A stretch of 64,000 bases of DNA from Phyllobacterium myrsinacearum (GTDB lineage: Bacteria; Pseudomonadota; Alphaproteobacteria; Rhizobiales; Rhizobiaceae). Position 1 is the first letter of the stretch. Every line of letters starts with the position of its first letter. Location: assembly GCF_002980555.1 (NCBI RefSeq), contig NZ_PVBT01000008.1:238838-302837 (forward strand), written 5' to 3'. Made by a program: the position numbers and the translations under genes. This document shows, in pieces, positions 23,357-36,112 of this stretch. The notes under the pieces are model-generated. The model was not told where the DNA came from. It ran no database searches and saw only the letters and a list, made by a program, of their open reading frames with translations.

Positions 23357-23628
23357 AGAGCGGTTTGCGACCATATTGAATCGTTCTGCCGGAGGGAATT
23401 TGGTTCAAGGTCGAGGGGTTTGGCGAGACCGATGCCTTTCCATCGGGCGAAGCCGAAGCCCGATGGCATTGGGCCAAATTCACCCGGCCCTTCGGGTTTC
23501 CGGCTGGCGGACACCCACTTTGTCAGGCAGCGTCGTCCGATGGATAAACATCGGCCTCGCTACCTTCCGCGTGGATTGTCTCGCCATCCGGGAAACAGAA
23601 CTGATCCAATATGGCCGCAAACCGCTCT
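23357..23628 (+). repeat. 272-bp structured repeat, copy A
   Basis: One of two copies of a 272-bp element (the other is 35141-35412, inverted). Ends are an inverted repeat starting AGAGCGGTTTGCG and ending CGCAAACCGCTCT. Inside are nested complementary segments: GAATTTGGTTCAA with TTGGGCCAAATTC, CCATCGGGC with GCCCGATGG, and CCGATG-CATCGG. The middle is nearly identical to copy B, the outer arms are not, yet each copy stays self-complementary. There is no convincing protein; peptide frames across it are by-products. The right end supplies the stop codon of the Tlde1 gene. Confidence 0.9.
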
Positions 23629-25099
23629 AACGCGTGGCGATGCGCGATGATGATGGCAGGTGTTCCACCACGACAAGGCGCGAGACTTCGCCGCGCTGGA
23701 ACGCTTTGAGGAAGCGGCGATAATCCTTGAAAACCACGCATCCGTTCGAATCGCCGCGCGGTCCCAGCATGTAGGTATGGGCGAGCAGGCCGTTGCGGCC
23801 GAAGGCATTGCGGCCGTCGACCGGCGTCAGGCGGATGGCCGCGACGCCGTGGAAAAGCTGTTCGCGCATGGTCAGATTATAGGTGTGCGGCGGTGTCGGC
23901 CCGCGGTTCGATTCGCGCGTGTAGCGGGGATTGTCCAGCATGTGGCCCATGCCCGAATGCGCTTCAAGCCGCTCGCCATTGGGCAGATAAACCGTGCGCG
24001 CCGAGATATCATAGACAGCGACGCCATTGCGCGAGCCGCCGAATAGCGATCCGAACAGGCTTTTCGATTTGGGCATGGCTTCGACGGCCGCATCATCCGG
24101 GCGGATGGAAGCCATCTTCACGTCAGGCCGCTGTTTTGCCGGAGCGGTAGGGGCTGGCGGAAAGGTTCCGGCTGCCACCTTCGGCCGTTTCGAAGGCAGG
24201 GGAACATCAACCGTGTCCTGCGCGTCATCGGATGAGGCCGCGTCGTCCGGTGCCACGCTGGCGGTCTTTCTGTCCGGTGCATCTTCCGGCACGGGTACGG
24301 CGACTTCAAGGTCCGGCGCGAGCGGCCCCATCATCGGGTTGCTTTCGGTTGCCGAGGGCGCGTAGCTGGCGAGGATCGGTATTTCCGGTTCGTGGCGGCG
24401 CTTGTCCACGAGATCGGGCTGGGCGTTGAACGGATTGTCCGAGGCCGTGGCCAGCGCGGCGCCCGCAGCGGCGATTTCCAGTTTTTCCCGGTCGGGGGCA
24501 ATGGCAGGCAGCGGTATGGAACCAACCGGCTTGCTGTCGAGCGTGGACCGGCCGTTTGCCGCCAGCGCCAGGGCGCTGTTGGCCATTGCGGCGCGGATTG
24601 CGTTCTGCACCTCGGCGTCGACCGGGCCGGACGGCGTATTGAGAAGCGCGGTGACGTCGGATTCGGACAATGGCGCCGTGTCGAGCATCACGAGAGCGGA
24701 GGCGGGTTCTGCGAAGGCTTCGTCATGGCTGACGACGACGCGGTCCGCCGTATCGGCATTTTTTGCCTCCGCCAGTGCGCCGTGGGGAATGCGGTGCCGC
24801 AATTCGGGATTGAGCGCCGCCAGTGCGGCGCTGTTCGGCCTGCGGACCTTCAGGGTGCCGGGATCGACAAGCGCAATCGTGTCGAGCGCGTGGGAGCCAT
24901 GGTGCAGCACCGCCGGGCTTGCGGCGAAGGAAGCCACCATTTTTTGGGTCGTGCTGATGGTCGCCAGAACCCATACGGTGGCGGCTATGCCGACGCCGAT
25001 GGCCAGCGCGCTGACAAGCCCGCCGCGCGGTTTGCCCACGCGAAAGGCTGAAGGGTTAAAGGAACCAGCCTGCCTGAATGTATCGGTCGCGAACGCCAT
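23627..25099 (-). CDS. Membrane-anchored Tlde1/DUF2778-domain protein
   Basis: A 490-residue protein. One membrane helix (LVSALAIGVGIAATVWVLATI, about residues 28-48) anchors it with the rest in the periplasm. A long Pro/Ala/Asp-rich disordered middle leads to a C-terminal Tlde1-like (DUF2778) domain: AVYDISARTVYLPNGERLEAHSGMG, GPTPPHTYNL and AHTYMLGPRGDSNGCVVFKDYRRF. The histidine and SNGC cysteine match the L,D-transpeptidase-type catalytic pair, so it probably acts on peptidoglycan. The stop codon TAG comes from the repeat element at its 3' end, so the last residues may differ from relatives. Confidence 0.88.
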   Translation of the reverse strand: MAFATDTFRQAGSFNPSAFRVGKPRGGLVSALAIGVGIAATVWVLATISTTQKMVASFAASPAVLHHGSHALDTIALVDPGTLKVRRPNSAALAALNPELRHRIPHGALAEAKNADTADRVVVSHDEAFAEPASALVMLDTAPLSESDVTALLNTPSGPVDAEVQNAIRAAMANSALALAANGRSTLDSKPVGSIPLPAIAPDREKLEIAAAGAALATASDNPFNAQPDLVDKRRHEPEIPILASYAPSATESNPMMGPLAPDLEVAVPVPEDAPDRKTASVAPDDAASSDDAQDTVDVPLPSKRPKVAAGTFPPAPTAPAKQRPDVKMASIRPDDAAVEAMPKSKSLFGSLFGGSRNGVAVYDISARTVYLPNGERLEAHSGMGHMLDNPRYTRESNRGPTPPHTYNLTMREQLFHGVAAIRLTPVDGRNAFGRNGLLAHTYMLGPRGDSNGCVVFKDYRRFLKAFQRGEVSRLVVVEHLPSSSRIATR

Positions 25100-34196: not shown

Positions 34197-35075
34197 ATGG
34201 CAGTCAATACAGCAGCGCAATCAACCACCTGGACCTATGTCGACGGTGACTGGCACGAGGGCAACGTGCCCCTGATCGGGCCGCGCAGCCACGCCATGTG
34301 GCTGGGCTCGACGGTTTTTGACGGCGGGCGCTGGTTTGAGGGCGTCTCGCCCGATCTTGACCGCCATTGCGCCCGGGTGAATGCCTCCGCCGCCGCGCTT
34401 GGTCTCCAGCCGACCATGAGCGCGGAAGACATCGTCGGGCTCGCCCGCGACGGGTTGAAAAAATTCGATGGCCGGATCGCCGTCTATATCCGGCCGATGT
34501 ACTGGGCCGAGCACGGCGGCTATATGGGTGTGCCTGCCGATCCCGATTCAACCCGCTTCTGTCTCAGCCTGTACGAATCGCCGATGCAGGAGCCCACGGG
34601 CTTCTCCGTCACCGTTTCACCCTTCCGCCGCCCGAGCTTCGAGACCATGCCGACCAACGCCAAGGCCGGTTGCCTCTACCCCAACAATGGCCGCGCCATT
34701 CTCGAGGCCAAATCCCGCGGTTTCGACAATGCGCTGGTGCTCGATATGCTGGGCAATGTCGCCGAAACCGGCAGCTCGAACATTTTCATGGTCAAGGACG
34801 GGCACATTTTCACGCCCGCGCCCAATGGCACGTTCCTGTCCGGCATCACCCGCGCCCGCACGATCGACGTGCTGGCCGACTACGGTTTCCGCACGACGCA
34901 GGCGACGCTGACGGTGCAGGATTTCCTCAACGCCGACGAGATTTTCTCCACGGGGAACCATTCGAAGGTCGTGCCCGTTACCCGTATTGAAGGCCGCGAC
35001 CTTCAGCCGGGTCCGATCACCAAGAAGGCGAGGGAGCTCTACTGGGAATTCGCCCACTCCACGCCGAAAATTTAA
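34197..35075 (+). CDS. Branched-chain amino-acid-type (class IV) aminotransferase
   Basis: A 292-residue fold-type IV PLP enzyme. The lysine that forms the internal aldimine lies in MPTNAKAGCLYPNNGRAI, and VAETGSSNIFMVKDG and GITRARTIDVL are the PLP-phosphate segments. The closest description is a branched-chain or D-amino-acid-type aminotransferase; IlvE proper is slightly longer. It transfers amino groups between branched amino acids and 2-oxoglutarate. It ends just before copy B of the 272-bp repeat. Ribosome site before the ATG is poor (TCACTCTC). Confidence 0.88.
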   Translation: MAVNTAAQSTTWTYVDGDWHEGNVPLIGPRSHAMWLGSTVFDGGRWFEGVSPDLDRHCARVNASAAALGLQPTMSAEDIVGLARDGLKKFDGRIAVYIRPMYWAEHGGYMGVPADPDSTRFCLSLYESPMQEPTGFSVTVSPFRRPSFETMPTNAKAGCLYPNNGRAILEAKSRGFDNALVLDMLGNVAETGSSNIFMVKDGHIFTPAPNGTFLSGITRARTIDVLADYGFRTTQATLTVQDFLNADEIFSTGNHSKVVPVTRIEGRDLQPGPITKKARELYWEFAHSTPKI

Positions 35076-35140: not shown

Positions 35141-35412
35141 AGAGCCTTTCTCGCCTAAATAGAAACAGTTCTGTTTCTCGGATGGCGAGACAATCCACGC
35201 GGAAGGTAGCGAGGCCGATGTTTACCCATCGGACGAAGCTGCCTGACAAAGTGGGTGTCCGCCAGCCGGAAACCCGAAGGGCCGGATGAATTTGGTTCAA
35301 ATCCATCGGGGTTTGACTTCGCCCGATGGGTAAACATCGGTCTCGTCAACCCCCTCGACCTTGAACCAAATTCTTTCCGGCAGAACTATTCTATTTAGGT
35401 GAGAAAGGCTCT
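35141..35412 (-). repeat. 272-bp structured repeat, copy B
   Basis: Second copy, inverted relative to copy A and the same length. Its ends are AGAGCCTTTCTC and GAGAAAGGCTCT, continuing into CCTAAATAG / CTATTTAGG with one G/A difference. The middle is near-identical to copy A, including CGGCTGGCGGACACCCAC and GCCTCGCTACCTTCCGCG. In this copy CCGATGTTTACCCATCGG appears in one arm and its exact complement in the other. It occupies the aminotransferase-sodB gap, with no effect on either reading frame. Confidence 0.9.
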
Positions 35413-35512: not shown

Positions 35513-36112
35513 ATGGCTTTCGAACTGCCCGCACTGCCGTATGATTACGACGCGCTCGCCCCCTTCATGTCGCGCGAGACGTTGGAATATCATCATGACA
35601 AGCACCACAAGGCTTATGTTGACAACGGCAACAAACTGGCTGCCGAAGCCGGTCTTGAAAATCTCTCGCTTGAAGAGATCGTCAAGCAGTCCTATGGCAA
35701 GAATGCCGGCCTTTTCAACAATGCCGGCCAGCATTACAACCACCTGCATTTCTGGCATTGGCTGAAAAAGAACGGCGGCGGCAAGAAGCTTCCGGGCGCT
35801 CTGGAAAAGGCCATTGACTCGGATCTCGGCGGCTACGACAAGTTCCGCACCGATTTCATCGCTGCCGGTACCACGCAGTTCGGCTCCGGCTGGGCATGGC
35901 TCTCCGTCAAGAACGGCAAGCTTGAAATTTCCAAGACACCAAACGGCGAAAACCCGCTGGTTCATGGCGCAACGCCGATCCTCGGCGTCGACGTATGGGA
36001 ACACTCCTATTACATCGACTACCGCAATGCCCGTCCAAAATACCTCGAAGCTTTTGTCGACAGTCTCATCAACTGGGATTACGTCCTCGAACTCTATGAA
36101 AAAGCCAAATAA
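35513..36112 (+). CDS. sodB: Superoxide dismutase, Fe/Mn family
   Basis: A 199-residue Fe/Mn superoxide dismutase that converts superoxide to hydrogen peroxide and oxygen. Metal ligands lie in YHHDKHH (His27), NHLHFW (His77) and DVWEHSYY (Asp and His). The glutamine in NNAGQHYNH (Gln73) sits where iron enzymes have it. No signal peptide, so it is cytoplasmic. GAGGAG precedes the ATG and a terminator follows. The 272-bp repeat lies just upstream of its promoter. Confidence 0.96.
   Translation: MAFELPALPYDYDALAPFMSRETLEYHHDKHHKAYVDNGNKLAAEAGLENLSLEEIVKQSYGKNAGLFNNAGQHYNHLHFWHWLKKNGGGKKLPGALEKAIDSDLGGYDKFRTDFIAAGTTQFGSGWAWLSVKNGKLEISKTPNGENPLVHGATPILGVDVWEHSYYIDYRNARPKYLEAFVDSLINWDYVLELYEKAK

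Follow-up and report, generated by a model that had tools for sequence, protein, structure and literature searches.

Covarying terminal stems and TA-flanked insertion of a very probably mobile 272-bp repeat from Phyllobacterium and other Alphaproteobacteria

Comparison with described small repeats

The small mobile sequences RUP, Correia/NEMIS, and ERIC are characterized in excerpts of PMC2229807 as being about 100–200 bp long with one end-to-end stem, and the ends of RUP are reported there to resemble those of IS630-Spn1. The repeat described here, two copies of which lie in a window of 64 kb (the whole stretch of Phyllobacterium myrsinacearum DNA that was analyzed), is like these sequences in being non-coding, in its inverted ends and terminal TA, in its presence or absence at given sites, and in its mostly intergenic location. 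It differs from them in that it is about 270 bp long, possesses two inner arms and covarying, non-conserved ends, and occurs class-wide, and no parent insertion sequence was found for it. The repeat also shares with MITEs the features of being short, non-coding, and non-autonomous and of having terminal inverted repeats, but not the A+T-richness that excerpts of PMC2229807 give as typical of MITEs, the two window copies having 58% and 52% GC in comparison to 60% for the whole window.

The CIR sequences of Caulobacter and Brucella, which according to the same excerpts (PMC2229807) are about 110 bp long with two arms, no end-to-end stem, and a GANTC hallmark, are likewise alphaproteobacterial and intergenic and likewise consist of two inverted-repeat arms plus a linker; the present repeat, however, is about 272 bp long with an end-to-end stem, and GANTC is found anywhere in only 70 of 150 copies. 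TnpA-REP, as described in excerpts of PMC8266576, recognizes single-stranded hairpins by their structure and a short constant motif, and it provides the nearest working analogy for recognition of structure plus motif without the repeat being a member of that group. In comparison to REP/REPIN sequences as presented in parts of PMC8266576 and PMC3116915, the repeat has no GTAG foot and uses a TA target, and a Y1 (HUH) transposase (PF01797) was detected in none of 21 Phyllobacterium genomes, the control search being positive in 5 of 14 named genomes including E. coli. Rhizobial repeats named in the available parts of PMC2573895 and PMC2245857 are RIME, Sm-1 to Sm-5, and the A/B/C motifs; these, together with Bru-RS (103–105 bp, from an excerpt of PMC2267715) and Br-REP, are likewise palindromic repeats that lie between genes in members of the same order, with RIME and Sm being compared by description only. 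Br-REP1, which excerpts of PMC5082802 describe as having three palindromes and being located in 3′ regions, shares both of these features with the repeat, but the Br-REP1 consensus palindrome and the Br-REP2 piece from that source were present in 0 of 150 copies.

The initial annotation of the window knew of no named element with this sequence, and likewise no description or match was found in Rfam and the open-licence literature. Inverted-repeat transposons are commonly viewed as being recognized by sequence; the terminal repeats of the present family vary almost freely yet stay complementary, at a nearly fixed length and in many families of one class.

Anatomy and distribution of the repeat

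Copy 1 is located on the plus strand at positions 23357–23628, begins with AGAGC, ends with GCTCT, and is flanked by T (23356) and A (23629), and copy 2 is inverted, on the minus strand at 35141–35412. The boundaries of their parts were mapped by hand from the columns of alignment A3, which comprises 41 diverse copies from across the class that were aligned blind to structure. In copy 1, the left strand of the outer (terminal) stem spans 23357–23387 (helix 1 of A3, in which 96.4% of the cells are paired, subject to the upward bias described below) and is followed by the left hairpin arm at 23388–23488 (helices 2–5), the small tip CCTTCGG at 23489–23495 (helix 6), the right hairpin arm at 23496–23596 (helices 7–10; this arm makes up most of the covariance model R1 described below), and the right strand of the outer stem at 23597–23628, all on the plus strand. 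The equivalent parts of copy 2, all on the minus strand, are the 5′ strand of the outer stem at 35382–35412 (helix 1), the left arm at 35281–35381 (helices 2–5), the right arm at 35173–35273 (helices 7–10), and the 3′ strand of the outer stem at 35141–35172 (helix 1). Both genes adjoining copy 1 are on the minus strand; copy 2 is neighbored by genes for a class IV aminotransferase (34197–35075, plus strand) and an Fe/Mn superoxide dismutase (35513–36112, plus strand).

The initial annotation had described these copies as equal in length, nearly identical in the middle, furnished with terminal and nested inverted repeats, and devoid of a plausible gene, and the description held in each respect. 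Both copies are exactly 272 bp, their identity is 233/272 overall and 199/218 in the core, and the inverted repeats are real, with fold z values of −10.1 (copy 1) and −11.5 (copy 2) and none of 200 shuffles folding as well. No reading frame is conserved among the copies: any single frame is open in 3–29% of them, except for one frame that is open in 40% in Phyllobacterium. A hidden gene was rejected as an explanation; a long open frame spans copy 1, yet the share of copies in which any given frame is open never exceeds 40%, and conservation shows no clear three-base period. When the 64-kb window was scanned for AGAGC-ended palindromes, exactly two were found, copies 1 and 2, versus a mean of 0.035 matches for 200 random 5-mer ends used as the control. 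The key to the finding is an observation absent from the initial annotation: copies 1 and 2 have almost nothing in common in the sequence of their outer stems, with 10 of 19 bases shared per stem strand, and yet the ends of each copy pair with one another, at 22 of 24 positions in copy 1 and at 23 of 24 in copy 2.

Lengths were compared in three sets of elements. One set of 150 elements was obtained from 160 candidates (159 fetched stretches and the window), 10 without an acceptable end pair being dropped; 127 of the 150 were 266–276 bp and 14 were 350–362 bp. Two additional sets were collected with no preference for length, the search for the partner end extending as far as 1,700 bp. The first of these consisted of the covariance-model loci of the family and order searches described below (end pair accepted in 46 of 59, 13 dropped), and the second of 80 pattern-matched stretches plus nine class loci (accepted in 75 of 89, 14 dropped), with some of the loci lacking an end pair being truncated by a contig end. 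Lengths of 266–278 bp were found for 38 of the 46 and 71 of the 75 elements, and for 34 of 42 when the four Phyllobacterium loci were removed from the set of 46. The fold comprises an end-to-end stem of 30 pairs, the left arm, a tiny tip, and the right arm; the 356-bp forms have, instead of the tip, approximately 84 bp containing two hairpins. In three cases an orthologous site carried the long form in one genome and the short form in another, with the stem the same or nearly the same, so that the 84-bp module must have entered, left, or been swapped at an existing insertion. Unlike an ordinary MITE, the repeat is defined by its fold and its length of about 270 bp, with a terminal stem that joins both ends, a pair of hairpin arms, and a third module that may be present or absent.

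Several variant forms were noted. L247 and L327 share site and stem but measure 177 bp and 272 bp in their respective species, a difference that is due to internal loss after insertion. Short palindromes that consist of the terminal stem and hardly any or no arm sequence occur in the window's own genome (G000) at G000:C7:241252-241303 (52 bp), G000:C3:330623-330674 (52 bp), and G000:C6:355762-355799 (38 bp), and one more was seen at L163:10001-10071 (71 bp); they may have arisen by deletion or may represent minimal mobile forms. A separate 121-bp palindrome in the own genome (L152:14480-14600) has AGAGC..GCTCT ends with another stem and core, which suggests that elements with AGAGC ends form a broader family. 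The left and right ends of a 360-bp copy at a contig end (L309, G018:C42) are of different stem types, so that this copy arose either by recombination or through a join made during assembly close to the contig end.

The own genome contains nine 272-bp copies, one of 260 bp, two diverged copies of 271 bp, and one 356-bp form, along with short derivatives. The repeat was present in all 21 Phyllobacterium genomes searched, with 1 to 23 matches each, and in plasmid records of Phyllobacterium (5 of 7 records), Aminobacter, and Martelella. A covariance model of the right arm (R1, built from 38 sequences and 120 positions) matched 47 of 247 sampled genomes and 37 of 109 genera in the family, 24 of 297 genomes and 19 of 123 genera in the order, and 16 of 385 genomes and 14 of 277 genera in the class; the own genome is included in all three counts, and all of these counts are lower bounds because the search filters were strict. 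Matches within the order extend to families besides that of the window, and the 15 matching genomes other than the own genome in the class-wide search are spread over 13 families that lie beyond the order. With an exact pattern of 22 bases, 90 stretches were matched, and among the 80 listed were those in Phyllobacterium species, Mesorhizobium sp. LHD-90, Rhizobium oryzicola, Rhodobiaceae and Tepidamorphaceae MAGs, and others. Full elements of 270–272 bp were identified at 6 of 9 loci outside the order. Further copies and conservation of the structure, the lack of which was to count against the element, were both found.

Empty sites, target sequence, and gene ends

The joined flanks of 14 candidate insertions of the own genome were searched in the 21 genomes, and an empty site was spanned at 11 of them, in G004, a sister genome, or in one case in G017. 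The junction was T^A at 10 of the 11 sites and A^A at the remaining one (L023). A further site, L014, is spanned in G017 with T^A; L015, a poor end call, and L027, for which matches were gapped and the alignments unread, are not among the counted sites, and alignments to distant genomes that were gapped at the junction were also left out. Both window sites are empty in G004 with a clean T^A junction. For copy 1 the empty site in G004 reads ACATT^AGCGCG, and for copy 2 the orthologous empty sites read ACAT^AGG in 17 of 17 aligned and likewise in G004. In the flanks of the 150 copies, T precedes the element in 114 and A follows it in 126, and the next bases outward are Y in 124 and R in 133, which defines the target consensus as YTAR. 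The conversion of an empty T^A to T[AGAGC..GCTCT]A fits equally well with TA duplication and with insertion between T and A without duplication. Three copies in the own genome are 98–100% identical and occupy sites that are empty in G004, indicating recent movement. The initial annotation had suggested that the sequence may be a mobile structured element or a structured RNA; the empty sites, the TA junction, and the copies in 21 of 21 Phyllobacterium genomes bear out the first of these suggestions. We conclude that the repeat is very probably a mobile, TA-targeting, non-autonomous, and class-wide element that is conserved in fold and length.

Since its first two bases are AG and its last two are CT, an element that lands in the T^A of a TAA or TAG stop codon restores TAG from either side. 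The Tlde1-domain gene on the minus strand (23627–25099) has a TAG stop codon whose AG comes from the last two bases of copy 1, the convergent Fic and YbaN genes on plasmid p_3 of Phyllobacterium sp. 628 both terminate on element bases, and an ABC permease gene on p_unnamed2 of P. zundukense does the same; the copies on p_1 and p_2 of Phyllobacterium sp. 628 overlap no annotated gene. By the use of a crude longest-frame gene caller, which placed 52 of 128 sites within genes, facing gene 3′ ends were found within a few bases of the junction in 39 of 86 cases (45%), as compared with 27% for control YTAR sites, and 36 of those 39 were exactly at the T^A of the stop codon. A cruder count of stop codons hardly differed from the control (76/150 versus 482/1138 control sites). 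The enrichment of stop codons is moderate and may be due to target choice, survival, or both, and a stop codon rebuilt by the element's own ends would be a neat way to land harmlessly.

Stem covariation and its possible explanations

In alignment A3, changes on both sides were observed in 73 of 92 base pairs, with none of 500 shuffles being as high, and 93.3% of the cells were paired, versus 33.9–43.8% when the partners were slid by 1–3 columns. For all five measures the observed value was unreached by any of the shuffles, which ignore the relatedness of the copies. At least three pair types occur at most positions of the outer stem. Among 146 Phyllobacterium copies there are 115 distinct left stems with 88.8% Watson-Crick cells, most copies having 1–3 stem mismatches; pairing percentages for the outer stem, including this one, are biased upward because paired ends were required for an element to be accepted (at least 17/24, or a score threshold for the 150-copy set). 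The arms, the length, and the slide control are independent of the end-pair criterion. The end motif covaries as well, being AGACC/GGTCT in 3 of the 41 rows of A3, and other variants occur.

The reading that we favor is that of an ancient, non-autonomous, MITE-like DNA element of the Alphaproteobacteria, which probably depends for its mobility on folded DNA and matched ends, not on the sequence of those ends. In the proposed mechanism, one or both DNA strands would fold into a three-way junction or cruciform, the mobilizing enzyme or some step of the life cycle would need both ends to be paired, and selection would act on the structure plus the short end motif AGAGC, not on the stem sequence. 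The enzyme would act in trans, as the element codes for nothing. We put at about even the chance that folded DNA is itself the object recognized, the need for folding being read from the covariation alone. More tentatively, the repeat might be a class-wide transposable element read by DNA shape, in which a host-encoded or conserved alphaproteobacterial enzyme would act at TA targets and the ends would be free to change provided that they stay complementary; we consider this extended form less likely than not. The nearly free variation of the complementary ends makes one question directly testable, namely which enzyme would move DNA by its fold.

An ordinary MITE, the terminal inverted repeats of which would be recognized in sequence by DDE transposases (IS630/Tc1-mariner-like or IS5/IS427-like), with many stems following many transposases, is an unlikely alternative. 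Transposases of both types use TA targets, and the repeat has a TA target, the YTAR consensus, and inverted ends. Members of the two families are also at hand in the genus, as IS630-type DDE_3 was identified in 5 and DUF4096 (IS5/IS427-type) in 9 of the 21 Phyllobacterium genomes, and G013 possesses an eight-copy DUF4096 insertion sequence of about 840–850 bp (L176, L181, L185, L189-L193) whose copies seem to occupy CTAG or TTAG targets, which are of the YTAR type, with TA on either side, while its ends are unlike those of the repeat. However, neither family was matched in G000, a 44-contig draft, or in G004, and it is G000 that holds the nearly identical copies at G004-empty sites. Ends with the AGAGC stem were found at 0 of 29 inspected loci of DDE_3 and DUF4096 transposases, and an IS5 beside the Aminobacter copy did not have such ends. 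The number of distinct stems in Phyllobacterium and the class-wide inner fold and length are, in addition, unexpected for passive MITEs.

A parent element was also sought by means of the stems themselves. Five stem types searched in G000 and in the four-contig genome G013 returned known forms, palindromes of 38–164 bp, and a few unpaired or weak matches, with no spacing like that of an insertion sequence and no stem-matched long element. Ten stretches (nine in G000 and one in G013), picked for unexplained stem or arm matches, were inspected; palindromes of 38, 52, 52, about 63, and 164 bp were present, the stem matches at G000:C8:87500 and C1:1141134 had no partner, no stem match or end pair was confirmed around C1:1127866, C1:609110, and C1:952463, and none of the ten contained an insertion sequence. 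In sum, no ends shared with an autonomous insertion sequence were detected for two DDE families in 21 genomes or by the stem search in two genomes. As G000 is a draft, its genome may contain an insertion sequence that is missing from the assembly. It is a puzzle that this genome has recent copies but none of the three transposase families that were examined.

A structured non-coding RNA whose pairing is selected in the RNA itself, and which spreads by way of RNA or along some other route, corresponds to the second suggestion of the initial annotation and is improbable. The very strong covariation and the CCCTTCGGG tip present in many copies are what such an RNA would lead one to expect, and the strands provide a means of comparison: selection on one RNA strand would tolerate G·U there and so leave more G·T than A·C mismatches. 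Tallied as G·T and A·C over 70 diverse copies, the mismatches numbered 56 and 63 for the outer stem, 106 and 87 for the left arm, and 42 and 98 for the right arm, with totals of 204 and 248, and so no single RNA strand is indicated. In Phyllobacterium, the left arm alone has a clear surplus of G·T (115 versus 29), but the right arm is reversed (31 versus 88) and the outer stem leans to neither side (131 versus 111). The mismatch bias of the two arms therefore runs in opposite directions, although elements were not selected for pairing in the arms, and this imbalance is also a point against the favored reading. When the fold was made without RIBOSUM, G·T seemed to be in strong excess in the arms; this arose partly from one-strand pair choice and was gone after correction. 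Both strands fold equally well (−206 versus −208 and −211 versus −218), and 98 of 102 pairs are common to the two strand folds. Apparent stop codons are about equal in number at the left (51) and right (44) ends of the element. Rfam yielded no match in the window or in five loci from other genera at the gathering score, nor for copy 1 even at E values up to 1, and a simple consensus scan found no promoter-like site around copy 1. The mismatch counts, the strand-symmetric fold, and the lack of an Rfam match, promoter, or conserved frame favor a role at the DNA level, which is where, from these sequence comparisons, we prefer to place the pairing.

Equally improbable is pairing without function, in which hairpin-templated mutation (template switching or arm-to-arm conversion) would keep the arms complementary. 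Such a process accounts for covariation on both strands alike, and it finds some support in closely related stems at non-orthologous sites, where 18–49% of the changed pairs are two-sided when 1–5 pairs have changed (the share being about 80% at 10–14). Orthologous copies, on the other hand, retain the mismatches they have, and most of their changes affect a single side of a pair, with 13 one-sided versus 3 two-sided pair changes in 16 comparisons, not all of them independent, from which three same-site groups resembling separate insertions and L209, with a deletion in its stem, were left out. Four sibling copies in G000 have the same two stem mismatches, and mismatches thus survive transposition; the fixed length is also unexplained by templated mutation. 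Because the changes in place are mostly one-sided, there is no clear sign that the fold is maintained once the element has inserted; this, like the survival of mismatches, also speaks against the favored reading. Correction of the fold after insertion was likewise unsupported, given the dominance of one-sided changes and the presence of neither fewer nor more mismatches at shared sites (2.23 in copies at species-shared sites versus 2.30 in the others). Within the favored reading of a DNA element dependent on its fold, slow selection in the mobile lineage would best fit the timing of the pair changes. A phage origin was dismissed, as phage records gave no match.

The sequences belong to a previously unannotated repeat family for which a covariance model is now available, and one record calls a copy a gene. 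This is the 270-bp copy on pMM593 of Martelella mediterranea (L498:1483-1752), which overlaps the annotated hypothetical protein WP_155122253.1, an annotation that is probably a spurious gene.
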